DNA of 64,000 nucleotides from Tuwongella immobilis (GTDB lineage Bacteria > Planctomycetota > Planctomycetia > Gemmatales > Gemmataceae): NCBI RefSeq assembly GCF_901538355.1, contig NZ_LR593887.1:6114920-6178919 (forward strand). The letters run 5' to 3'. The position numbers were made by a program, and so were the translations under genes. The first letter of the stretch is position 1; every line of letters starts with the position of its first letter. The notes below the pieces were generated by a model that was not told the origin of the DNA, ran no database searches, and saw only the letters and a list, made by a program, of their open reading frames with translations. Below are positions 27,942 to 58,584 of this stretch, one piece after another.

Positions 27942-28859
27942 TTATGCGATCAGGGAGGATTTTTCCGAACGGGCCGCGACTGGTGGCGAGCTGTGAAAGA
28001 GCGTCAGGCCGCGGCCATCCGCATCGATTCGGGCCTTGGGATAGACCAATATTACCTCGCGCAACGTCTGTAAAAATCGCCGACGGAAATCACGAACGCG
28101 GCCAAATCCTTGACCAAATTGCTCATATAGCGACACCCAATCAATGAATTGCGGCCGATTGGGAGCGATTCGATGCAGTCGTTGAGCAAGCCACACATAG
28201 ACATCTAATGCCATGGATGAGGAGCCTAACGCAGATACTGCCCGCCGATCTAACGGCACCGCATGCTTGCCCAACGAACGATAATATTCATCGCTTAACC
28301 GGACCGTTGATGGCCACAGAACGCGTTGATCTTCCTGTCGCGGAAACCACAAATCGAAGGCGGATACAAATTGAGCATTCACCTGCACCGCGCGGCCATC
28401 TTCGACCACGCCCATTCGCACGGTCGCGGCCGCGAGACGGGCCAGTTGATCCTTCAGCGTCCGCAACTGCTGGCCGTTGGTTTCCATCCGCAATGCCCGC
28501 GCGAACGCGGTCATCGAGTCTTCGACTTCGACCACCGGCGAGCCCGTTCGCACCGCTTCGGTGGCCAAATGAATCAGTACCAGTCGCGGTTTTTCCCCAT
28601 ATGGCAGGCCCATTTTGACAAATTCGCCGGTGCGTGGATCAAGAGCGGAACCCGCCTCGATGCGAAGCGACGCCAGCCCTTGCCGACGGTCCCATTCGCG
28701 GACGTTATCGCCTGGATTGCGATACGGAATGCCGCATTGACAATGCACGGTATGCAGAAAATCAATGCGATTGGGCGGCGATCCCTGAATCTCGGCGGAT
28801 GCCTCGATGAGCCGCATTTGCTGTCGCGTTGGCAGAAATTGCGAGAGTTTATTGGCCAT
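27942..28859 (-). CDS. repA: RepA-type plasmid replication initiator
   Basis: A protein of 305 residues. ATG 28859 is preferred over GTG 28865 because GGGG lies five bases upstream. The sequence matches RepA_C-type initiators of broad-host plasmids: LHTVHCQCGIPYRNPG near residue 38, GLPYGEKPRLVLIHLATEAV near 85, the DNA-binding section LKDQLARLAAATVRMG, and ALDVYVWLAQRLHRI with DWVSLYEQFGQGF. It is encoded facing away from the transfer-like operon, with its 3' end beside the iterons it should bind. It gives good evidence that this block is or was a replicon. No copy-number or antisense RNA is evident. Confidence 0.85.
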   Translation of the reverse strand: MANKLSQFLPTRQQMRLIEASAEIQGSPPNRIDFLHTVHCQCGIPYRNPGDNVREWDRRQGLASLRIEAGSALDPRTGEFVKMGLPYGEKPRLVLIHLATEAVRTGSPVVEVEDSMTAFARALRMETNGQQLRTLKDQLARLAAATVRMGVVEDGRAVQVNAQFVSAFDLWFPRQEDQRVLWPSTVRLSDEYYRSLGKHAVPLDRRAVSALGSSSMALDVYVWLAQRLHRIAPNRPQFIDWVSLYEQFGQGFGRVRDFRRRFLQTLREVILVYPKARIDADGRGLTLFHSSPPVAARSEKSSLIA

Positions 28860-28984
28860 CGCCACCCCGCGATTCCGCTCGAATATCGCCTCGGAAAATG
28901 CCCCTTTTCATGTCGGCAAGTGTAACAGGTTGCTCGGTTCGCGCAACTGCTGTCTGAAATCTCAGGCCGGTTCGCGTGCGGATT

Positions 28985-29983
28985 TCAGCCAGGAATGCTG
29001 TTGACGAGATCCCACGTCACACGCTTCTTCCGCCGGTCATACAGTCGCGTCGTCCTCGGATCCGCATGGCCAACGAGATATTGCACATCCTCCAGTGGTT
29101 GGCCGGCTTGCAGCAACGTCGTCACGGTTTTCACGCGAAAACTATGCGGGGTGATTCGCTCGGAGAGGTTAGCTGCCTTGCAACGCCGCTTGATCATTCG
29201 GCGCATATATTCTGGTGTCATGTTCGATTTATTTGTGATCAATCGACGGCTTGATTTGTCCCACTGAACGCAGCGAAACAGTGGCGCATCGCGGTTCATT
29301 CGTGGATCACAATCGATATCAGCAGCATGCTGATAGGCTCGCAGCCATGATTCCAAGTCGGGCCGCACCGGAACCGCCCGCCGTTTGCCGTTTTTCTCCC
29401 GGAAATGCAGCGTGGTGATGCTCCCATCGTCCCGGATGTCGCCCAACCGCAACGCCGCGATTGCCCCGACACGAGCCCCCGTGAAATTCAGCACGCCGAT
29501 GATCGCCCGATCACGCAATCCAAGCACATTGGATGTGTCGATTGTCGAGAGTAAACGCCTCACCTCGGCGGTGGTAATTTCAGCCGTTTTCCCCTCATCT
29601 TGGCTGTATCTCGCCCGCCGAACGGATGCCGCCGGGTTGATGTCCAGCAGACGCTCAGCCACCAAATGATCAAAAAGCGATCGCAACGCGGCCAAGTGTT
29701 GTTTTTCCGTCGGCACCGCCCAACCCCGCTCGTTGAAATACCGAGCGATCAGCCCCGCCGTGACACCTTTCGGGGGTACGCCGCGAGTATCACACCAGGC
29801 AAAAAACTGCCGAGCGGCCCGCAGATATGCCTTCCGCGTGTGCGAATTCGCAATCCGCCCCGCAAAGAAGTCATCGCACGCTCGACGAAACGAATCGATT
29901 TCCTCAAATGGAAGAATCTCATGTTTATTTCGCGACGTTAATTGGTGATCGATCATCATGAATGACCGTAGCGCGAATCCCAT
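28985..29983 (-). CDS. Xer-like tyrosine recombinase
   Basis: Up to 332 residues from ATG 29983; ATGs at 29959 and 29956 are alternatives, and none has a clear ribosome site. The N-terminal SAM-like domain (NSHTRKAYLRAARQFFAWCD) precedes the catalytic part. Active-site residues are readable: Arg in GARVGAIAALRLGD, Lys in FREKNGKRR, His-x-x-Arg in TPHSFRVKTVTT, His in YLVGHADPRTT and the nucleophile in RLYDRRKK. It sits 125 bases from the initiator gene, as resolvases of planctomycete plasmids often do, and could resolve multimers. A perfect dyad lies just upstream of its start. Confidence 0.85.
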   Translation of the reverse strand: MGFALRSFMMIDHQLTSRNKHEILPFEEIDSFRRACDDFFAGRIANSHTRKAYLRAARQFFAWCDTRGVPPKGVTAGLIARYFNERGWAVPTEKQHLAALRSLFDHLVAERLLDINPAASVRRARYSQDEGKTAEITTAEVRRLLSTIDTSNVLGLRDRAIIGVLNFTGARVGAIAALRLGDIRDDGSITTLHFREKNGKRRAVPVRPDLESWLRAYQHAADIDCDPRMNRDAPLFRCVQWDKSSRRLITNKSNMTPEYMRRMIKRRCKAANLSERITPHSFRVKTVTTLLQAGQPLEDVQYLVGHADPRTTRLYDRRKKRVTWDLVNSIPG

Positions 29984-29996
29984 ACGCTGTCAATCA

Positions 29997-30028
29997 CTGG
30001 GTGGGATAACGTCCTTTATCCCACCCAG
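29997..30028. repeat. Perfect 13-bp inverted repeat upstream of the recombinase
   Basis: CTGGGTGGGATAA and its exact complement TTATCCCACCCAG are separated by six bases. It starts 14 bases upstream of the recombinase ATG at 29983. Perfect arms with a 6-bp centre resemble a tyrosine-recombinase core site or an operator; as RNA it would be a stable hairpin. It lacks a following T run on either strand, which argues against a simple terminator. Confidence 0.6.
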
Positions 30029-30178
30029 CCTGTAAAAATTAAATATCTTCACAGGAATGCTCATGGTGATTTTTAAACTGAGAATCACTCCGGACGTTGG
30101 AGTCGCTGGAGCGTCCCGATTGAGCCACCAAAGTCCCCCAACCTCACGCGCTTTTCTTGAAACACCTTTGCGGATCCA

Positions 30179-30221
30179 TGGAACAAGCCCCCCCAACATG
30201 GATGTTGAGGGGCTTGTTCCA
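30179..30221. repeat. Long hairpin downstream of the integrase gene
   Basis: TGGAACAAGCCCC pairs perfectly with GGGGCTTGTTCCA, and an inner AACAT/ATGTT pair extends the stem. It stands 46 bases past the integrase stop at 30268. It could be a transcription terminator for the integrase (minus strand), although no T run follows, or part of the attachment region. Apart from this and the other dyad, the 29984-30267 gap shows nothing I can name. Confidence 0.5.
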
Positions 30222-30267
30222 GTTACCGGAGCCTGTTCGTTGGGTGAATCGCCAATGGGCTGGCTGC

Positions 30268-31335
30268 TTACATGGATTGGTTCGCGTTGGCTTCGTTCAA
30301 AGTTCGCATCAAATGCTCGCTACTCTCCGCGAGGTGCTGATAAGTCTTTGCAATCATGGTGCCATCGCAATGACCGAGTAATTCGGCCACGGTCAGGTGA
30401 TCGACGCCGGACACCAGCAGACGTTGTGCAAAGCTATGACGAAAGCTATACGCTGCATACTTGACGCCGAGCGACTTCTTCAGGCGAGCGAAACGGCAGG
30501 ACATGGCCGATGCAGTCCACGGCAACCCATCGGCGTTTTTGAACAGGATGCCGGTCGGCGTTGCGACAAGGCGGCGTGATAGCGCTGCTTCAGCACGTGC
30601 AGTCAGGTAGATCACTCGGGCTTTTCGCTTGCCTTTGGATTCGGCGGGGGGAAAGACCACGCGGTGACGTGGCAGATCCACGTGCCGCGCCTCGATCCGT
30701 TTGATCTCCATCGGCCGGCATCCGGTTTCCCACGCAAACTCAAGAACATCGCGGAATGGATCTCCTTCCGGGTAATGGTCGCGGATTTTGATCCAGTCAT
30801 CGGGTGTGATTACCTGTTCACGCCGGGCTGGCGATGGTTTGCGAATCTTGCGGATCGGGTTGGATTCGATGTACCCGAGTTCTTCACCCCAGGCATACAC
30901 TCGTTTGATTGCTGCAATGGCGTTGCGGCGATAGGTTTGTCCCCAATCGGGGTACTTGTCGATCCATTCGACAATGTGATAGGGACGCAGGCTTGTTGCT
31001 GGAAGCGAAATTGCATCGGGCAGTGATTCGATAAACCGCTGCAAATGCCAGAGATAGCCGTCATAGGTGCGTGAAGCCCGGTGTGTCTTGCACCAATCAA
31101 GATATTTGTCACACAAGTGGGCGACTGACAAGGCTGCAGAGTTGTCAGAAGGTTGCGCCGTGTTGGATCGTAAAGAGATTTTTCGCTGAGCAACAATCTC
31201 ATGAAATTGAGACCATGCTGCTTTTTCAGTAGTAGAATTTTTGGGTCCAGGTGCCAACTTGATTTGTTGACCATCGAGCTGGATGTACCAGGCGTTTCGA
31301 GCAGTGCGGAAAAACGGCTTTGGTTGATGTGCCAT
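30268..31335 (-). CDS. int: Tyrosine integrase next to a tRNA gene
   Basis: A protein of 355 residues; ATG 31335 has GGGAGG eight bases upstream. The N-terminal arm-binding-like part is basic. A core-binding domain (YLDWCKTHRASRTYDGYLWH) and the catalytic domain follow. Catalytic residues: Arg in ETGCRPMEIKRIE, Lys in SKGKRKARVIYL, Arg in YSFRHSFAQRLL (with Tyr where most have the first His), His in ELLGHCDGTMIA and Tyr in KTYQHL. It is a phage-type integrase. The gene's 5' end lies 89 bases from the 3' end of a tRNA gene, the classic arrangement for an element integrated at that tRNA. Confidence 0.88.
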   Translation of the reverse strand: MAHQPKPFFRTARNAWYIQLDGQQIKLAPGPKNSTTEKAAWSQFHEIVAQRKISLRSNTAQPSDNSAALSVAHLCDKYLDWCKTHRASRTYDGYLWHLQRFIESLPDAISLPATSLRPYHIVEWIDKYPDWGQTYRRNAIAAIKRVYAWGEELGYIESNPIRKIRKPSPARREQVITPDDWIKIRDHYPEGDPFRDVLEFAWETGCRPMEIKRIEARHVDLPRHRVVFPPAESKGKRKARVIYLTARAEAALSRRLVATPTGILFKNADGLPWTASAMSCRFARLKKSLGVKYAAYSFRHSFAQRLLVSGVDHLTVAELLGHCDGTMIAKTYQHLAESSEHLMRTLNEANANQSM

Positions 31336-50117: not shown

Positions 50118-50273
50118 CGGAATCGGACCGGAATTCGCCGAGGCCGATTCCTCATCAGTTTGGCACCATTCCAATTCCCCGCATGGATTCTCTCGGATTG
50201 CTCCACGAAACATGCGACAATGCACCATCAGCGAAGCGAATCTCAGCGGCATTCTGCGACAGGGGGCAATCGC

Positions 50274-50990
50274 ATGGGGTGGATCTTGCGGGGGCGGGAG
50301 ATGGGGGCGGTGGTGGGGCTGGTTGCGCTGAGCGTGATCGGGTTATCGCCGATGCGGACGGTGGTGGGGGCGGACTCGGCGACACTGTTCGAGGACCGCT
50401 TTGAGGGGAAATTGGCCGAACGGTGGCAGGCGGTTGGGCTAAAGTCGGCGGATTATCGCATCGACGATGGCGCGTTGGAAATTCGCATGCAGCCGGGGTT
50501 ACTCGACGCCAAAACGCCGCGATTGCAGGTGCTGCTGCCCATCAACGTCGGCCATGACACCGTGGTCGCGTCGGTGCGGGTGACCATGCGCGATGCATTT
50601 CGCGAACCGGGCGAGCTGGCGGGGCTGATTCTGCTGGATGAATTTGGCCCTGAATTCAGCGTTCGCAAGGAGCGAATTGCGGGAAAAACCCTGTTCCGCC
50701 CCGGACCGGTTCGATTTACCGGAAAGCCCGGCGAAGAAGGCGATCCCACGAAGTACACCACCACTGAGATACCTGCCATGGATGCAGCCGGGCCGTTGCG
50801 GTTGATTGTCGATCGCGGATATGCCTTCGCCCAGATCGGCCCATCGCAGAAAGACGACTACTTGAATTTGTTCCATTCGGCGATCCGGAAGGAGTCGCGG
50901 CAACGTGGGTTCGCCTTGGTTGCGGTGGGTGCGCCGCGAGATGCCAACCGCTGGGTGCGATTTGAGGATTTCCGCATCACACGTCGGTGA
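50274..50990 (+). CDS. Secreted protein with jelly-roll-like domain
   Basis: A 238-residue protein from ATG 50274 (GGGGG upstream). A signal peptide (VVGLVALSVIGLSPMRTVVG, cleavage after GAD) precedes a beta-rich domain starting LFEDRFEGKLAERWQAVG. This opening (EDRFxGxLxxxW) is typical of concanavalin-like/DUF1583-type exported planctomycete proteins. Strands recur through RLQVLLPINVGHDTVVASVR and GPLRLIVDRGYAF. No catalytic motif. Its 3' end is part of a block repeated 2.1 kb downstream. Confidence 0.7.
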   Translation: MGWILRGREMGAVVGLVALSVIGLSPMRTVVGADSATLFEDRFEGKLAERWQAVGLKSADYRIDDGALEIRMQPGLLDAKTPRLQVLLPINVGHDTVVASVRVTMRDAFREPGELAGLILLDEFGPEFSVRKERIAGKTLFRPGPVRFTGKPGEEGDPTKYTTTEIPAMDAAGPLRLIVDRGYAFAQIGPSQKDDYLNLFHSAIRKESRQRGFALVAVGAPRDANRWVRFEDFRITRR

Positions 50991-51229
50991 GATTCATCGG
51001 CTGACTTGCATGCGCCGCAATTCAGCCCGCCGCGATTCAGCCCGCCGCAATAGGCCGTTCGCCGACAAAGAGCCTCGCAATATCTCACACACCATTTGAC
51101 AAACGGTCGCCGATCGGTTAGCCTATCCAACCCGGCTGGCGTCGCGAAACCGGCTTGCCCCGGCTGGGACAGATTGCGCACGGCGCAATCGAATCACAAG
51201 TTCGGCGGCAGGAGGGCGCTCGGATGGCG
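50874..51229 (+). repeat. Direct repeat, copy 1 (about 350 bp)
   Basis: This stretch, from CATTCGGCGATCCGG to GCTCGGATGGCG, recurs at 52971-53310 with most bases identical. It holds the 3' end of the secreted-protein gene, a GC-rich run of repeated CAGCCCGCCGC units, the CAATAGGCCGTTCGCC box, a TTGACA promoter and the leader of the next gene. Copy 1 has about 30 extra bases near 51135-51175. Confidence 0.9.
51096..51124 (+). promoter_or_regulatory. Promoter in direct repeat copy 1
   Basis: A perfect -35 TTGACA is followed after 17 bases by TAGCCT (three matches to TATAAT). It lies 100 bases before the first cassette gene. The same pair stands before the ferritin-like gene in copy 2. Confidence 0.5.
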
Positions 51230-51607
51230 TTGCTGTTCTTGGGTGCGAGCCGGTGCTCGATCTGCCGCGAGGTGCTGCACCCCGGCCAGGCGATCGTGGC
51301 CACTACACACTTCATCGGCGAGCCGACCGACCCGCTCTCCCGGTTCTCGGACACCGGCATGCACCATGAGTGCTTCGCCGGGTGGGAGCACCGGGACGAG
51401 TTCGCCGCCCGCTACCACGCGGCCCTCGGCGTGAGGCTGGCCGGGTGGGTGCTGGTGGTCCCCGCCCCCCCCGGTGGCCCGCCACTGCCGCGGTGCCGGC
51501 TATCGGTGCTGGGCACGCCGGAAGCGCGGGCCGGGTACTTCGAGGCGTTGCGGGCGCGGGTCGCCCAAGACGCCAACCCCGGCGCTGCAGCCGACGGCGG
51601 AGCGTGA
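51224..51607 (+). CDS. Small zinc-ribbon-like protein of the cassette array
   Basis: A 127-residue protein; ATG 51224 follows CAGGAGGGC. It opens MALLFLGASRCSICREVLHP with a CxxC that, with the later His/Cys in GMHHECFAGW, could bind zinc. It continues with Leu-, Ala- and Pro-rich stretches. The end, ANPGAAADGGA, is encoded by the repeat element that follows, a sign that the gene and the repeat form one unit. Family unknown to me; similar short CxxC proteins occur in Gemmata-like genomes. First gene after direct repeat copy 1. Confidence 0.7.
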   Translation: MALLFLGASRCSICREVLHPGQAIVATTHFIGEPTDPLSRFSDTGMHHECFAGWEHRDEFAARYHAALGVRLAGWVLVVPAPPGGPPLPRCRLSVLGTPEARAGYFEALRARVAQDANPGAAADGGA

Positions 51608-51685
51608 TTCGTTTCTGGGATTTCGAGCGCATCGGATGCCGCCGAACAGGTGAGCGGTATCGTTCAGCCGCAGGAGGGCATACGG
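51580..51685 (+). repeat. attC-like cassette repeat 1
   Basis: It runs from CGGCGCTGCAGCCGACGGCG through GATTCGTTTCTGGGATTTCG to GTGAGCGGTATCGTTCAGC and the ribosome site of the next gene. Order and spacing recall integron attC sites: a GCGCTGCAGC-GAC left arm and a TGAGC ... GTTNNGC right arm with imperfect complementarity. The inner GATGCCGC/GCGGTATC forms a hairpin. The core recurs at 52148 and 55097. Confidence 0.55.
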
Positions 51686-52165
51686 ATGGTGACAGTCGGC
51701 TCGGTGACACGCGAAGCCGCTGCCGCCCGGTTCCCGTTTCTGGCCGCGAAGGTGTCCGGCCGCCGCGGTCAGATCAAGGAGTTCACCCACCGCGACCCGG
51801 ACTACGTGTTCTGGGTCCACCCGGACGGGCGGTTGCACGATGCCAAACGGTCACACCGGGACAACGTGCCCCGCGGCCACGAGGGGATCGAGGACGACGA
51901 GCCGGACTACGGGGGCTTCCTGCGGGGTCGGATCGCGTCGCTCGGATCGGACCAGTTGGTCGTCGTGTACTGCCGGCCAGAGGCGCTGGCGGTCGCCGGC
52001 GACAAGCTCAGGCAGTTCCTCCGTGGGCTGGCCCAGTTGCCGGTGCCACTCGACGACAGAGCGCTGGTGGTCAGCGACAACGCCGACCTGTATGGCACCG
52101 TGGCGGACTTGTACAGGCGAGCCCAAGAAGCCGAACCAAGCGGCAGAGCCGACGGCGGAGCGTGA
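51686..52165 (+). CDS. Hypothetical protein of the cassette array
   Basis: A 159-residue protein from ATG 51686 (GGAGGGC upstream). It contains DPDYVFWVHPDGRLHDAKRS near residue 38 and a strand-helix pattern in the last half (QLVVVYCRPEALAVAGDKLR). It is soluble, without signal peptide or known motif. The C-terminal EPSGRADGGA is again encoded by the following repeat. Third-position G/C is very high, more so than in neighbouring chromosomal genes. Function unknown. Confidence 0.65.
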   Translation: MVTVGSVTREAAAARFPFLAAKVSGRRGQIKEFTHRDPDYVFWVHPDGRLHDAKRSHRDNVPRGHEGIEDDEPDYGGFLRGRIASLGSDQLVVVYCRPEALAVAGDKLRQFLRGLAQLPVPLDDRALVVSDNADLYGTVADLYRRAQEAEPSGRADGGA

Positions 52166-52242
52166 TTCGTTTCTGGGATTTCGAGCGCACCGGATGCCGC
52201 CGAGCAGGTGAGCGGTATCCTTCGGCGAGGGAGGGCTTGCGG
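52148..52242 (+). repeat. attC-like cassette repeat 2
   Basis: Nearly identical to repeat 1 from GCCGACGGCGGAGCGTGATT through GAGCGGTATC, ending CCTTCGGCGAGGGAGGGC before the next ATG. It overlaps the last codons of the preceding gene. Confidence 0.55.
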
Positions 52243-52782
52243 ATGAGGAGATCGCTTGAAAACACTTGGCGGTTCCTGGAGTCAGAGCACTCGGACGTAC
52301 CCCGCCACCCCGACGGCAGGCCTATCGTCCGAGACCGCATGCCGAGCGTCTTCGACGAGAAGCCGCTCGGGTTCAGCTACTTCCGCGCCAAGCTCGAGGA
52401 TGCCGACCGCAGCCACCTGACCATGCCCCGCACCCTGTTCAGCCGGTCGTGGCTGGTCCGCACCAGCTTCGTCGGCACCGACCTATCCGAGTCGTGCATG
52501 TGCTGGAACGACTTCGACGGATGCGACTTCAGTGGGGCGGACCTGTCTGGATGTGACATGCGGGCATCCCACTTCCGCGGGTGCCGCTTCGCCAAGGCGA
52601 TACTGCGGGGCGCGGACCTCCGCCGGTCGTCGTTCGAGGGCTGCGATTTCGCAGGGGCCGACCTGAGCGACGCGGTGGCTGAGGACGAGGACTTCGATGG
52701 GTGCATCCACGATTTCCTCAGCTCAGAGCAGCAGGCAACCATGACACTCACCGACGAGGGGCCAGAACCGCCGGGCGGGTGA
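52243..52782 (+). CDS. Pentapeptide-repeat protein of the cassette array
   Basis: A 179-residue protein from ATG 52243 (GGGAGGGC upstream). From about residue 80 it has tandem five-residue repeats of A(D/N)LXX type: TSFVGTDLSESCM, DFDGCDFSGADLSGCDM, HFRGCRFAKAILRGADLRRS and SFEGCDFAGADLSD. This predicts a right-handed quadrilateral beta-helix of about 4 coils. Such proteins sometimes mimic DNA (as in QnrA/MfpA), but most have unknown roles. The first 70 residues are non-repeat. The frame upstream of the ATG is also open but lies in the preceding gene. Confidence 0.8.
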   Translation: MRRSLENTWRFLESEHSDVPRHPDGRPIVRDRMPSVFDEKPLGFSYFRAKLEDADRSHLTMPRTLFSRSWLVRTSFVGTDLSESCMCWNDFDGCDFSGADLSGCDMRASHFRGCRFAKAILRGADLRRSSFEGCDFAGADLSDAVAEDEDFDGCIHDFLSSEQQATMTLTDEGPEPPGG

Positions 52783-52970
52783 GCAACGGCACGCCAACCC
52801 CAGCACCGCACCGGACATTGGCCGCATGGAGGCGTTCCCAGATGGATCGCCACCTGAGCGGCCGGGCGGCAGAGCTGGGGCGTTTGCTCCAAGTCTGAAA
52901 GCGGCATCGTTTCGAAACTTCGGCACGTGAGTCATGCCCCGGATACGCCACAATCCATCAGCATTGGTTT

Positions 52971-53087
52971 CATTCGGCGATCCGGAAGGAGTCGCGGCAA
53001 CGTGGGTTCGCCTTGGTTGCGGTGGGTGCGCCGCGAGATGCCAACCGCTGGGTGCGATTTGAGCATTTCCGCATCACGCGGCGATGA
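52971..53087 (+). pseudogene. Duplicated 3' tail of the secreted-protein gene
   Basis: This frame encodes the last ~38 residues of the protein at 50274-50990 (ending VRFEHFRITRR, with His for Asp and stop TGA). It lacks a start and the rest of the gene. It was carried along when the repeat block was copied. Confidence 0.8.
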
Positions 53088-53205
53088 GATTCGTCGGCAG
53101 GCTTGCATGCGCCGCAATTCAGCCCGCCGCGATTCAGCCCGCTGCAACAGCCCGCTGCAATAGGCCGTTCGCCGACGAAGAACCTCGCAATATCTCACAC
53201 ACCAT

Positions 53206-53234
53206 TTGACAAACGGTCGACGATCGGTTAGCCT
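53206..53234 (+). promoter_or_regulatory. Promoter in direct repeat copy 2
   Basis: TTGACA, 17 bases, TAGCCT, as in copy 1, here 71 bases before the ferritin-like gene. Confidence 0.5.
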
Positions 53235-53304
53235 ATCCAACCCAGCTGGGATCGATTGCGCCAGCGCAATCGAATCACAAATTCGGCGGCAGGAGGGCGC
53301 TCGG

Positions 53305-54168
53305 ATGGCGGTCGGCCAAGATAATCTACCCTTCGTGCGAAGCTCTTCAGAGTGGGTCGCCTACTTCGAACGGAATGCCGCCGAGTTGCGTGCAATCCCG
53401 TGGGAGATGGGCGCGGGCGTGACCGATGCCGAGTTGTCCGCCATCTCGGCGTCTCTTCGTGGCTGGCAACTCGGCGAGACATCCGATGGGTCGCACCTTC
53501 TGGCTGCGGCCCGCCACTACGCGGCGGCGGTCGGCGACCCGGAATTTATCGACGCCGTCCGGTTGTTCATCACGGAAGAACAGCGGCACGGCGGTAACCT
53601 TGGCCGGTTCTTGGACTTGGCCGGCGTGGAGCGAGCCAGCTCGGACTGGGGCGACAGCTTGTTTCGAGCAATTCGGTATGCTATGCCTCGGATGGAGATC
53701 TGGGCGACCCCGGTGGTGATGGTCGAGACGCACGCGATGGTCTACTACAACGCCGTGCGACGGGCGACGCAGTCACCGGTATTGCGGGCGATCTGCGAGC
53801 AAATCCTTGCCGACGAGGTTGCCCACATCCGATTCCAGTGCGAGCGACTTGCCATCCTGCACCGCCGACGTCCGTGGTGGCAGCGGAAGCTCACGATGGG
53901 CCTGCATCGTCTGCTGTTCGCCGGGATCACGGTCGCCGTCTGGGGCGGACACCAGCGAGCGTTGCGGGCCGGCGGGTATGACTTCGGTCGTTTCTGGCGT
54001 GCCGCCTGGCGCAAAATGCGGTTCGCTTGGCGGGCCATGTCTCCTAACACCTATTGTTGGCAGCCGCCGCAGCAGCCGCCCCAGGCACCACAGCAGAGCG
54101 CGGCCTCATCGATCCTTTCCCCAGTTTCAGTCGGCCGTGGCGCGGCGGCTGAGCTGGGTCGACGATGA
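53305..54168 (+). CDS. Ferritin-like di-iron protein
   Basis: A protein of 287 residues from ATG 53305 (CAGGAGGGC upstream, the shared cassette leader). A four-helix ferritin-like core is indicated by FITEEQRHGGNLGRFLDL near residue 90, VVMVETHAMVYYNAVRRA near 139 and ILADEVAHIRFQCERLAI near 168. The Glu and His residues of E..H pairs could bind two metals. The last 40 residues are Gln/Pro-rich and contain repeat-derived sequence. It may store iron or act as a hydroxylase-type di-iron enzyme; no partner is near. It probably entered as a cassette. Confidence 0.75.
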   Translation: MAVGQDNLPFVRSSSEWVAYFERNAAELRAIPWEMGAGVTDAELSAISASLRGWQLGETSDGSHLLAAARHYAAAVGDPEFIDAVRLFITEEQRHGGNLGRFLDLAGVERASSDWGDSLFRAIRYAMPRMEIWATPVVMVETHAMVYYNAVRRATQSPVLRAICEQILADEVAHIRFQCERLAILHRRRPWWQRKLTMGLHRLLFAGITVAVWGGHQRALRAGGYDFGRFWRAAWRKMRFAWRAMSPNTYCWQPPQQPPQAPQQSAASSILSPVSVGRGAAAELGRR

Positions 54169-54430
54169 AGCCGTCGGTTGGTCAAGTCCAAGCGCGTTGG
54201 CTTTCAGGGCGAATGGTTCCGTGAATCGTCCTCACTCGATGTTCGGTGGTGGATTCTCGGGTACGACGATGGTAAATCCAAACGACGCTCTTGAAGCGTC
54301 TCAAATCAATCCCGAGAATCCAATCGGTGAACATCGCAAGCCTCCCGAACGGGTGTATTTCTCGGAAGATGCACCCACGGCTTGCATGGATTCTTTCGGC
54401 GAACCGAAGATGGCCCCAAGGAGGAGACCG

Positions 54431-55078
54431 ATGCGGCGAGGCATCTTGCTGGTACTGTGTTGCGTGTCGTTTCCGTCAAGCATCGCCTCGGCGGCAGAAA
54501 CGGATGCTCAGGAACTCGTCAAGCAGGTCGTGAAGACTGCCGGCGGCGAGGACAAACTGTTGAAGCTGTTTCGGTTTCGCGAGCGTGTCCTGATTACCGA
54601 AACACCGGCGGCGCCAGTGGTGAAGAATGAGAAAGGGAATCGCACATCGGTCGTGCAGGTCGCCGGCGACTGGTGGATCGGCAAGGAGAAGCGCGACAAG
54701 GACAAGGTGCGGGTTCTGTGCTGGGCTTGGAGCCTCCGTATCCTGCTGGATCCGAAGTCCAAGATTGAAACCGTTCCCGAAATCCTGGTGAACGACAAGG
54801 CCGCATCTGGTTTACGAGTGACCGAGTCCGTCAAGGAACCGATCAAACTGTACTTCGACAAGGAAACAAGACGTCTCGTCGCGATCGACTACACCGATAC
54901 GCGGCACGTCTTCAGTGAGTGGCGGAAGACCGAAGCAGGCCACGAGTATCCATCACACGTGGCTGGCTTCCGCTTCACGGATCGCAAGGCCGGCACACTC
55001 AAAGACAAGCAGTGGTATCAAACCGACATTCTGGAGCTAACGCCCCTCAAAGAACTGCCCGTCGAGCTGAAACGGTAG
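54431..55078 (+). CDS. Secreted protein of the cassette array
   Basis: A 215-residue protein. ATG 54431 follows AGGAGG and begins a signal peptide (MRRGILLVLCCVSFPSSIAS, cleavage after SAA). Mature beta-rich sequence AQELVKQVVKTAGGEDKLLK resembles the start of lipoprotein-sorting (LolA/DUF-type) exported proteins common in planctomycetes, which often begin with a helix then strand pairs (RVRVLCWAWSLRILLDP-like). The upstream 262 bases in frame are open but have no ribosome site. The stop is followed by the attC-like repeat 3. Confidence 0.7.
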   Translation: MRRGILLVLCCVSFPSSIASAAETDAQELVKQVVKTAGGEDKLLKLFRFRERVLITETPAAPVVKNEKGNRTSVVQVAGDWWIGKEKRDKDKVRVLCWAWSLRILLDPKSKIETVPEILVNDKAASGLRVTESVKEPIKLYFDKETRRLVAIDYTDTRHVFSEWRKTEAGHEYPSHVAGFRFTDRKAGTLKDKQWYQTDILELTPLKELPVELKR

Positions 55079-55082
55079 TGCC

Positions 55083-55196
55083 ACCCCGGCGCTGCAGCCG
55101 ACGGCGAAGCGTGATTCGTTTCTGGGAGTTCGTGGCTCAGCGTGCCCCGCCGCTGCTGAGCTTAGTCGTTCGGCGGCGGAGGGCTTGCGAGGCGCG
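55083..55196 (+). repeat. attC-like cassette repeat 3
   Basis: It shares CCCCGGCGCTGCAGCCGACG and GTGATTCGTTTCTGGGA with repeat 1. Its right arm (GCCGCTGCTGAGCTTAGTCG then TTCGGCGG) is closer to a classic attC: GCT-CAGC-GGCG on one arm answers GCTGCAGC..GGCG on the other with an extra G. Confidence 0.55.
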
Positions 55197-55487
55197 ATGC
55201 GTGCAGAGATCAGCTACGACCTCGTCATGAGCGACGACATGGGGTTCGTCGAGGGCACCTTCCGGTTGCCCGGTGGTGACTGGCAGGTGGTGATCGTGTC
55301 GCAGTACGATGTGTCCGTGCCGGTCGCCGTCCCGCAGGTCTGGGACAGCGGGGTGCGGGGCGTGTTCGTCCGGTTCCCGCGCGGGTGGCCGCTCAACGCC
55401 GCGGCCGTCGAGCGGGTGCTGTCGGCTTCGCTCGGCGTCACGGAGTGGTTGGTGGTGCGCGGCCCCGACTCGATGCAACTGCGGTAG
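55197..55487 (+). CDS. Small hypothetical protein, last of the array
   Basis: A 96-residue protein from ATG 55197; the leader GGCGGCGGAGGGC is the array type. It reads MRAEISYDLVMSDDMGFVEG, strand-rich and amphipathic, with the DWQVVIVSQYDVSVPVAVPQ segment resembling an immunoglobulin-like sheet. No known family. The 97 bases after its stop carry GC-rich repeats and the CAATAGGACGTTAGCC box that also forms the end of the convergent gene. Confidence 0.6.
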   Translation: MRAEISYDLVMSDDMGFVEGTFRLPGGDWQVVIVSQYDVSVPVAVPQVWDSGVRGVFVRFPRGWPLNAAAVERVLSASLGVTEWLVVRGPDSMQLR

Positions 55488-55584
55488 CTCACAGACACCG
55501 CCCCAGGCGCCACGCAACCGACGACGGGGGCGGTCGGCTTTGCAGGGTTCGCAGGTCACTCGGCAGCCCCGCCCCAATAGGACG

Positions 55585-58584
55585 TTAGCCGACGAAGATT
55601 CCGTCTTGGAAATTGGGATCTTCGAATCGGAATCGGTTGATTCGATTCGGTTCACCGTTCTCGGAGAGAGTCAACGGCTGCACCAGATCGATATAGGCCG
55701 AGGTTTCATCGCGGCTGGCGAGGACCAATTCGGGCGAATCGACACCGTCAAAATCACGGACGGCGACTCGGATTCCGCTCCGCGAATTGATGTCGCCATT
55801 GAAGAAATTCGCCAGCGGCAGCAACTCGGTTCCGCCGGATTGCAGCACGCGGGCGGCATCCAGCACCAGCACACGTGGCCCGCCGCCTGGCCCGGCTCCA
55901 AAAATCAGATCCGCCGATCCATCGTCATTCAAATCGCCCAGGGCGGGATAGGTGCCATCACGCAGTTCCGGCTCGAATGCGAAGAAATCGCCGATGAGTT
56001 TTACGGGGCCATCGGGAGATCGCAGGGTGGAGCCATCGAACAGGGCGATTCGCGGGCCACCAGTCGGGCCGGCCGCCACCATGAGGTCGACAATGCCATC
56101 TCCGTTGAGATCGCCCACCGCGACTCGGGCACCGCCGCGGAAATCCGGATCGTCGATGCCGAAGAAATCGGCAATCACCTGGAGCGAACCACCCTCATAA
56201 ATGCGGATGCGCGGCCCGCCGCCGAAATCGGCAGACACCACGATTTCATCCAGCCCATCGCCGGTGAGATCGCCGGTGGTCACATACAACCCACCGCGGA
56301 ACGAATCTTCAAACACCAACAGACTTTCCAGCCGCTGGAACGTGGTCCCGGAATAAATCTCCAGAATCGGCCCACCTCCCGCTCCAGCAACCACCAACAC
56401 CTCCGGGTCAGAATTGCCCAGCACAAAACCAGTGGTAGCCCGCGATGGCCCGGCGAAATCGCCACTGAACGGGATGATTCGGCCAATTTCACCAGTGGCG
56501 TCGAATAATCGCACCTCGGCCGAAATGCCCGCAAGTGCAGTCACCGCAAACGTGCGCTGCGTCAACGGCCGTTGGGGACCATCCTGGAATGATGTAATCG
56601 GATCCGTGGGATCCGCGGGATCCGTGGGATCGGTCGGCAGCGAGTCCTCATCTTCTGCGGTCACCCGTTCATAAGTCGCCCGCAACGTCGTGTCTTCCAA
56701 CGGTGTGGGAAACTCAAAGAATTGGTTCGCCCCGTTGCTCCAACCGGTAAATCGATAGCGTTCCCCTTCCACGATGATTTCCGGCAGGGCTTCTAACGAT
56801 CGCTGCAGCCCGGAAACCCCTTCAAATACCAACGGAGTCACAATCGGCTGCCCATCCAAGCGAATGGTTCCGGGGAAATCACTTTCCACGGTAATCATCG
56901 CGGTTTGCGGGAGAATATCACGAAATGTCGTCGCCGTTAAGCCAACGCTATCCACAACCGAAATGTGAATGCGGAAAAAGACATCGGCTGTTTTATAGGG
57001 ACTACGATCCGGGATCGTGAATTCCCCCGAGGTCACCCCCGTGCGCGGCAACACCAACGGTCGAACCGCCGCCCCGGTGTGATAATCGACTCGATAGGTC
57101 ACTTGAGAGGGGTCTAACACACCATCTTCAACATCCAATCCTTGGAATGCAAACTCGATGGTCTCCCCCGCGACAAATCGTTGCGATAATGCCGGCGACT
57201 CGATTTCAATCGTGGGGCGGGCGTTATCCAATACCGTTAATGTCGCCACTCGGCTTGTCACGATTCCAAATTCCGAGGTAATCACAACCTGGAATTCGGC
57301 CCCACTATCGGCCAATCCCACACTCCCAAGCACCAGCGTGGGGTTGGTTTCGCCCGGCAAATCAACGCCATTGCGCTGCCACTGATAGCTCAGCGTCCCT
57401 GCCCCAACCCCTTGCGCGGTCAGGGTTACCGATTCAGAAACGGAGGCGAGCACATCTTCCGGCTCGGAGAACAAACTCGGCGGGGCTTCCGGATCATAGC
57501 CAATCCGAATCACCCGCCCCCGGGTGAGATCGCCCGTGCGACCCAAATAATATAACGCCCCATCCGGTCCCACATCCAAATCAACGGGATAATCCAATTC
57601 GGTGGCAAAATCGGTCACTTCCCCGGTGACAGGGTCCATCCGCTTTAAGAATCGCAGTAAGAAATCACCGAAGAAATAATCCCCGACATATTCTTGCGGA
57701 AAATTCGCAACTGGTGGCACATAAAAGGCCGCTCCCGCGATCGAGTATCCCGTCCCGACATGCGCATACGAATAAATCGGGGAGATAAAGCGGGGATCGG
57801 TCGTTGGCCCCTCACTCAACGGCCAACCATAATTTGCGCCGGGGAATCCCTGATTCACTTCCTCATACGCTACTAAACCCACATCATTAATGAACATCAC
57901 ACCCGTTTCTGGGTGGATGGCAAATGTAAATGGATTGCGCAACCCCGTGGCCCAAATCGAGCGATGAATTCCCGTTGTTTGCGTGTAAAATGGGTTATCT
58001 TCTGGAATGGTTCCATCGGGATTAAACCGCAGCATTTTCCCATTTAATGCGGTGAGACTCTGAACCGTATTTTCTCGAACCGCATCTCCGGTGGCGATAT
58101 ATAATTTGCCATCCGGCCCGAAGTGGAGACCGCCGGCATTGTGACTCGTGGCCGATGGATACTCCACAATCACCAATTCCGAGGATAATTCGACTCCCGA
58201 TTCGGTCGCCGTGAAGCGACTGACCCGATTTAATGTGCTGTCGGGAGTCGTGTAATAGAGATAAAAGTGGCCGTTCTCTAAATAGTCTGGATGGAATTTA
58301 ATCCCTAAGAGCCCTTGTTCGCCAAACTCCGACGCCGTCCCCGCTTCAACCGTGATAAATAGCTCAGGCAACAGCACGCCGTTATCAATCACCCGCACGG
58401 TTCCTGATTGCTCGGTGACATACAGGCGGCCATCGGGTGCGAAATCCATGGCAATCGGGGATAACAGATTATCGGCAATTAATTCTTCAACGAATCCGGG
58501 GGGCAGGACAGCTGGTGCGATTCGAGCCTCCAGAAGTTCCAGTTGCTTGGATCGCCCAATCAGACAGTTGTCAAGATGAGTCAT
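55585..58584 (-). CDS. Secreted PQQ-type sugar dehydrogenase-like protein with FG-GAP repeats
   Basis: A protein of 999 residues; ATG 58584 has GGAGG five bases upstream and starts near LELLEARIAPA, a leader motif common to large exported planctomycete proteins. Residues ~25-355 form a glucose/sorbosone dehydrogenase beta-propeller (AMDFAPDGRLYVTEQSGTVR; HNAGGLHFGPDGKLYIATGD; LRNPFTFAIHPETGVMFIND). An Ig-like domain (~375-450) and a cadherin-like region follow, then, after a DPTDPADPTDP linker, FG-GAP/VCBS repeats with GDLTGDGLDEIVVSADFGGG and GDLNGDGIVDLMVAAGPTGG (calcium-type DxDGxxD). It probably acts on sugars at the cell surface or binds polysaccharide. Confidence 0.85.
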   Translation of the reverse strand: MTHLDNCLIGRSKQLELLEARIAPAVLPPGFVEELIADNLLSPIAMDFAPDGRLYVTEQSGTVRVIDNGVLLPELFITVEAGTASEFGEQGLLGIKFHPDYLENGHFYLYYTTPDSTLNRVSRFTATESGVELSSELVIVEYPSATSHNAGGLHFGPDGKLYIATGDAVRENTVQSLTALNGKMLRFNPDGTIPEDNPFYTQTTGIHRSIWATGLRNPFTFAIHPETGVMFINDVGLVAYEEVNQGFPGANYGWPLSEGPTTDPRFISPIYSYAHVGTGYSIAGAAFYVPPVANFPQEYVGDYFFGDFLLRFLKRMDPVTGEVTDFATELDYPVDLDVGPDGALYYLGRTGDLTRGRVIRIGYDPEAPPSLFSEPEDVLASVSESVTLTAQGVGAGTLSYQWQRNGVDLPGETNPTLVLGSVGLADSGAEFQVVITSEFGIVTSRVATLTVLDNARPTIEIESPALSQRFVAGETIEFAFQGLDVEDGVLDPSQVTYRVDYHTGAAVRPLVLPRTGVTSGEFTIPDRSPYKTADVFFRIHISVVDSVGLTATTFRDILPQTAMITVESDFPGTIRLDGQPIVTPLVFEGVSGLQRSLEALPEIIVEGERYRFTGWSNGANQFFEFPTPLEDTTLRATYERVTAEDEDSLPTDPTDPADPTDPITSFQDGPQRPLTQRTFAVTALAGISAEVRLFDATGEIGRIIPFSGDFAGPSRATTGFVLGNSDPEVLVVAGAGGGPILEIYSGTTFQRLESLLVFEDSFRGGLYVTTGDLTGDGLDEIVVSADFGGGPRIRIYEGGSLQVIADFFGIDDPDFRGGARVAVGDLNGDGIVDLMVAAGPTGGPRIALFDGSTLRSPDGPVKLIGDFFAFEPELRDGTYPALGDLNDDGSADLIFGAGPGGGPRVLVLDAARVLQSGGTELLPLANFFNGDINSRSGIRVAVRDFDGVDSPELVLASRDETSAYIDLVQPLTLSENGEPNRINRFRFEDPNFQDGIFVG

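Follow-up and report, generated by a model that had tools for sequence, protein, structure and literature searches.

A decayed integron cassette array headed by its own attI and lacking a nearby integrase in Tuwongella immobilis

The window analysed here is the whole stretch of 64,000 nucleotides from Tuwongella immobilis, in which covariance models for attC (R1) and attI (R2) identify the region at 51.1-55.6 kb as an integron cassette array whose integrase is absent locally. The array contains two or more clustered attC (four with E < 0.01, using a family-specific model and not IntegronFinder's own), and its features, together with the gene preceding it, are as follows:

50160..50990 (+): gene upstream of the array and not part of it; without a Pfam family, start codon uncertain; the array contains a repeat of its 3' end
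51095..51124 (+): promoter-like element at the array head, TTTGACA-N14-GGTTAGCCT, corresponding to TTGACA-17-TAGCCT
51168..51206 (+): attI 1, inverted repeat GATTGCGC..GCGCAATC, then GTTCGGC; R2 28.5 bits, E 1.1e-7
51224..51607 (+): cassette 1 gene, 127 aa with a CxxC motif, no known family
51572..51668 (+): attC 1, decayed; R'' GCCAACC, R' GTTCAGC; 33.2 bits, E 1e-6
51686..52165 (+): cassette 2 gene, 159 aa, orphan
52130..52226 (+): attC 2, decayed; R' CTTCGGC, crossover GTT lost; 18.9 bits, E 0.009
52243..52782 (+): cassette 3 gene, pentapeptide-repeat protein (PF00805, E 3e-31)
52798..52890 (+): attC 3 remnant, arms mostly lost; 9 bits; folding z -4.0, better than shuffles
52963..53254 (+): duplicated block, copy of 50866-51144 at 93-94%; roughly 350 nt in all, to 51229/53310
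53205..53234 (+): second promoter-like head element
53251..53287 (+): attI 2, crossover GTT mutated to ATT; R2 16.9 bits, E 4.9e-4
53305..54168 (+): cassette 4 gene, weakly ferritin-like; attC 4 encodes its C-terminal tail
54075..54163 (+): attC 4, decayed; 20.9 bits, E 0.0025
54135..54401 (+): repeated cassette leader; four more copies in the same genome, beginning behind attC remnants of other arrays
54431..55078 (+): cassette 5 gene, probably exported protein, no known family
55080..55174 (+): attC 5, best preserved; R' GTTCGGC intact, R'' GCCACCC; 46.4 bits, E 2.5e-10
55197..55487 (+): cassette 6 gene, 96 aa, no known family
55489..55570 (+): attC 6 remnant, left half only, at the right end of the array

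Model R1 was built from 33 sites located beside intact integron integrases (IntI) in other Gemmataceae, none of them from the genome of the window. The attC downstream of IntI follow the layout GCCGAAC-N5-GCT-G-CAGCAG-A-C(stem)..(stem)G-CTGCTG-AGC-N6-GTTCGGC, and the structure derived from it has standard pairs in 96% of the cells, as opposed to 84% in shuffles and 23-42% when slid. The alignment shows strong compensatory pairing, with 86 double-sided changes, and contains the R''/R' and L''/L' arms, the extrahelical base and the GTT crossover. In the window, R1 matches four plus-strand sites (46.4, 33.2, 20.9 and 18.9 bits), all of which are located at gene ends, and the next-best match in the 64 kb reaches 14.7 bits. 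With the corresponding E-values (2.5e-10, 1e-6, 0.0025 and 0.009) the layout is beyond chance expectation, and coincidence was rejected. An Rfam search of the array region returned nothing relevant, and an integrase search of the array surroundings in the window gave no match to IntI. The original prediction of a cassette array without a local integrase at 51224-55487 is thus supported; the covariance-model search that it proposed was positive, and the sites, which might have proved unlinked to gene ends, are located at such ends.

That prediction was based on three repeats, which do exist (51563-51668, 52121-52226 and 55083-55189, about 78-88% alike). All three are matched by R1 as sites with the arms of attC, although the second copy reads CTTCGGC and not GTTCGGC. 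GATTCGTTTCTGGGATTTCG occurs in three copies in the 6.69 Mb genome, one of them with a mismatch, and all are located inside the window. The sequences TTCGGCGGC.GGAGGGC, described as shared leaders, are indeed present before the genes at 51224, 51686, 52243, 53305 and 55197; however, they are not plain leaders, but consist of the right arm of an attC or attI (GTTCGGC) followed by a ribosome-binding site, and those at 51200 and 53280 are attI right arms, since R2 matches there. The claim that the repeats encode C-termini was confirmed for genes 1 and 2 and also applies to gene 4. Overlooked were the attC at 54075-54163, the degenerate attC at about 52798-52890 and 55489-55570, the duplication of about 350 nt, and the array's own attI and probable promoter.

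The attC of the window are in poor condition. Elsewhere in the genome, R1 finds 29 stronger attC in four arrays near 1.51, 4.84, 5.36 and 5.82 Mb, with scores of 55-84 bits for well-preserved sites compared with 19-46 bits in the window. One of these regions, G000:C1 1511461-1526129, contains about 18 well-preserved plus-strand attC facing a decayed minus-strand array. The GTT is kept in the window only at 55080-55174 and 51572-51668, where the arms are decayed in both cases, and it is lost in attC 2 as well as in attI 2. Hairpin folding of attC 1, 2 and 5 is no better than that of shuffles (z +0.2 to +1.6) and marginal for attC 4 (z -0.65), whereas two intact attC of the same genome fold at z -3.5 and -3.9. 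attC 5 is 92% identical to an intact attC at 1511661, and the attC 6 remnant matches the left part of the attC at 5825790-5825872 with 81% identity over 53 nt. Given the decay of the integrase, of one attI triplet and of the attC arms, and with three of the four scored attC folding no better than shuffles, the array is probably dead and most likely immobile.

For the attI sites, model R2 was constructed from 14 IntI-linked attI, all from other genomes. These lie about 150 nt beyond the stop codon of intI, contain an inverted repeat that covaries, and have the form ATAGATTGCG-n-CGCAATCTAATnACnA directly followed by GTTCGGC. In the window, R2 matches two attI at array heads and nothing else convincingly. 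TTGACA-17-TAGCCT is conserved before attI across genera, and the head-element pattern has 24 matches as opposed to 3 for the reversed pattern. A sigma-70 consensus scan did not call the head element, as the second hexamer TAGCCT matches in only 3 of 6 positions; it is the conservation of the element that suggests a possible promoter function. The motif also occurs without attI and may be a general promoter of Gemmataceae. The duplicated block carries the 3' end of the upstream gene, of which distant relatives are found in five other genomes, together with the attI head, and the copies at 50866-51229 and 52963-53310 may have arisen by tandem duplication with later turnover of cassettes. A 31-nt sequence, CCCGCCGCAATAGGCCGTTCGCCGACAAAGA, is present in both left flanks (51041-51071 and 53151-53181) and, at 87%, also at 55568-55598, which is the right border of the array and the 3' end of the downstream gene. 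Scanning genome contigs with the downstream gene revealed only distant relatives and no empty site. The plus-strand segment 48433-50117 contains a gene for an AAA_21 ATPase similar to phage-defence ATPases (PADLOC HEC-01A, AbiLi, AriA), followed by an overlapping gene of 185 aa, a pair that possibly represents a two-gene defence system.

The cassette boundaries can be traced by comparison within the genome. The segment 51181-51692 matches 5821600-5822111 at 87%, and this match begins in attI and ends at the next right arm, while the sequences upstream of both attI differ, so that one cassette is common to two attI heads. The cassette 1 gene and its twin are 93.6% identical at the nucleotide level (dN 0.054, dS 0.093), but their attC are only 67% identical; since the attC has diverged far more than the gene, exchange or conversion of the attC is more probable than its simple transfer together with the gene. 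A relative of the cassette 1 gene in another genus (G052; 62% aa identity) also starts directly after an attC. No relatives of cassette 2 were found in 102 genomes of the order. Cassette 4, which shows weak NCBIfam matches to EncB/encapsulin ferritin-like families, has relatives in 25 of the 102 genomes searched, its own included, with up to 86% identity elsewhere; as these relatives lack attC flanks in the other genomes, cassette 4 may be an ordinary gene. A block of about 240 nt within 54135-54401 is found after attC remnants in five cassettes of the genome, where it precedes unrelated genes (other copies at about 5825025, 1521320, 1523150 and 1524100), and is possibly a mobile leader or regulatory element.

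No intact IntI was found in the whole genome, only C-terminal relics. One, at 5816100, comprises residues 160-314 with its front replaced by a cassette reading frame, and the other, at 5361230, comprises residues 262-314 directly after an attC; an attI follows in both cases, and attI copies head other arrays of the genome. The original prediction had suggested an integrase elsewhere, which was probably true in the past but probably no longer is: IntI sequences with the extra region characteristic of these enzymes exist, but only as truncated relics. It is possible that an integrase was carried on a lost replicon (the genome is rated 96% complete). The two tyrosine recombinases at 29-31 kb of the window were rejected as IntI, as they reach at most 41 bits with TIGR02249 compared with a cut-off of 265. 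These two non-IntI genes adjoin a plasmid-replication-initiator-like gene on the minus strand at 27942-31335, possibly an integrated plasmid island. Taken together, we are highly confident that a decayed integron cassette array occupies the region at 51.1-55.6 kb, that it lacks an integrase, and that a promoter-like element and an attI of its own stand at its head.

By analogy with known integrons, an integron integrase supplied in trans from elsewhere in the chromosome would have captured the genes in circular form. IntI would recombine the folded single strand of an attC with the attI at 51200, at its GTT, giving genes that are each bounded by GTTCGGC and attC; exchange between attC sites would reshuffle the cassettes, and the head element would transcribe them. 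The substrates and products of such reactions are supported by the sequence, and the reactions themselves we infer from known integrons.

The other members of the family place the array in a broader context. Integron integrase sequences are present in half of 95 family genomes, of which 36 pass the TIGR02249 cut-off, and R1 detects attC sites in 80 of the 95. In these relatives, attC clusters are located directly downstream of intact IntI, and intI has the same orientation as the cassettes. Over the family, R2 reveals several attI in single genomes. The complete genome G011 contains one intact IntI and nine attI, eight of which are located away from IntI and match the IntI-linked copy over 67-209 nt with 78-90% identity. 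All eight are followed by a correctly oriented attC at a distance of at most about 500 nt, and IntI sequence was not found at any of these eight loci. Ten more attI copies (G087, G094, G053 and G006) precede attC within 1.5 kb. The head type of the window, namely TTTGACA-N14-GGTTAGCCT, a short inverted repeat and CGCGGCTAAA followed by attI, occurs without IntI in at least four other genera (G006, G015, G075 and G087) and, less clearly, in G035 and G062. At L012 9893-10607, a single reading frame runs from the start of a cassette gene into the C-terminal half of IntI, and it adjoins an attI remnant of the window type. We lean towards the view that Gemmataceae possess distributed integrons, in which one integrase serves many separate arrays, each with a promoter-attI head that is copied and inherited independently of intI, the window being a decayed member.

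A complete integron may instead once have been present here, with intI deleted in place and attI as the remainder of an ordinary degraded CALIN; the sole point of difference from the distributed arrangement would be a local integrase instead of one acting in trans. Such a process is illustrated elsewhere in the genome, where attI is left and cassette sequence has taken the place of the 5' portion of intI, and by two of the ten attI copies mentioned above (both in G053), which retain the last 61 IntI residues. However, there is no IntI remnant upstream of either attI of the window, whose head of promoter-like element, inverted repeat and attI differs from IntI-linked heads and is common to other genera at loci without IntI, so that we regard deletion in place as rather unlikely. 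Off-target insertion, in which an integrase elsewhere places cassettes at a genomic GTT without the involvement of attI, has been suggested as an origin of CALINs (PMC8618304), but the head of the window array matches attI (28.5 bits, E 1.1e-7) and not a generic GTT site, which makes this explanation very improbable. That the repeats are dispersed MITE- or IS-like elements located at gene ends by chance is scarcely credible and largely refuted by the R1 result, for although they are multi-copy and palindromic and part of 54135-54401 is a repeated block, the sites occur at gene ends in a single orientation and in relatives form clusters immediately after IntI, and they show the R''-L''-L'-R' arrangement together with an extrahelical G and stems that covary.

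Should many arrays headed by attI function in trans, the head cassette of each would have a first-position promoter, so that several 'first' cassettes could be expressed simultaneously in a single genome, and complete Gemmataceae genomes would allow the origin of CALINs to be tested. The searches also yielded a consensus for attI, including an inverted repeat that covaries, in a group with poorly described attI, as is generally the case for attI sites outside class 1 (PMC9024848). Integrons of Planctomycetes are already known (PMC2426708, PMC8618304, PMC8352920). In the open-access literature, we found no studies of integrons in Gemmata or Gemmataceae, nor any description of genomes with many arrays headed by attI.

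Among known systems, the window array resembles the CALINs, a class of IntegronFinder (PMC9024848), in having at least two attC without intI nearby and in being decayed relative to complete arrays. However, CALINs are defined by attC alone, whereas the window array has attI sites and a conserved promoter-like head besides. As in a complete integron, attI is present at the head of the array (R2 E 1.1e-7), but an intact intI is absent. The Xanthomonas CALINs away from the ilvD integron likewise consist of separate arrays without an integrase, in genomes with a present or former integron, and CALINs can be mobilised in trans; in the part of that study considered here, they are described as attC clusters at recurrent loci, not with attI copies heading them (PMC12444791). 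With sedentary chromosomal integrons, the array shares an attI followed by cassettes, attC that are highly similar within a genome, and mostly unknown genes. It differs from them in that intI is missing at the window and truncated elsewhere in the genome, in that several arrays, each with its own attI, are scattered over one chromosome, and in that intI of the Gemmataceae relatives points in the same direction as the cassettes, with attI about 150 nt 3' of its stop codon. Since integrons typically have one attI close to the integrase (PMC9024848), the multi-attI arrangement looks like an integron variant with dispersed arrays that are probably served in trans.
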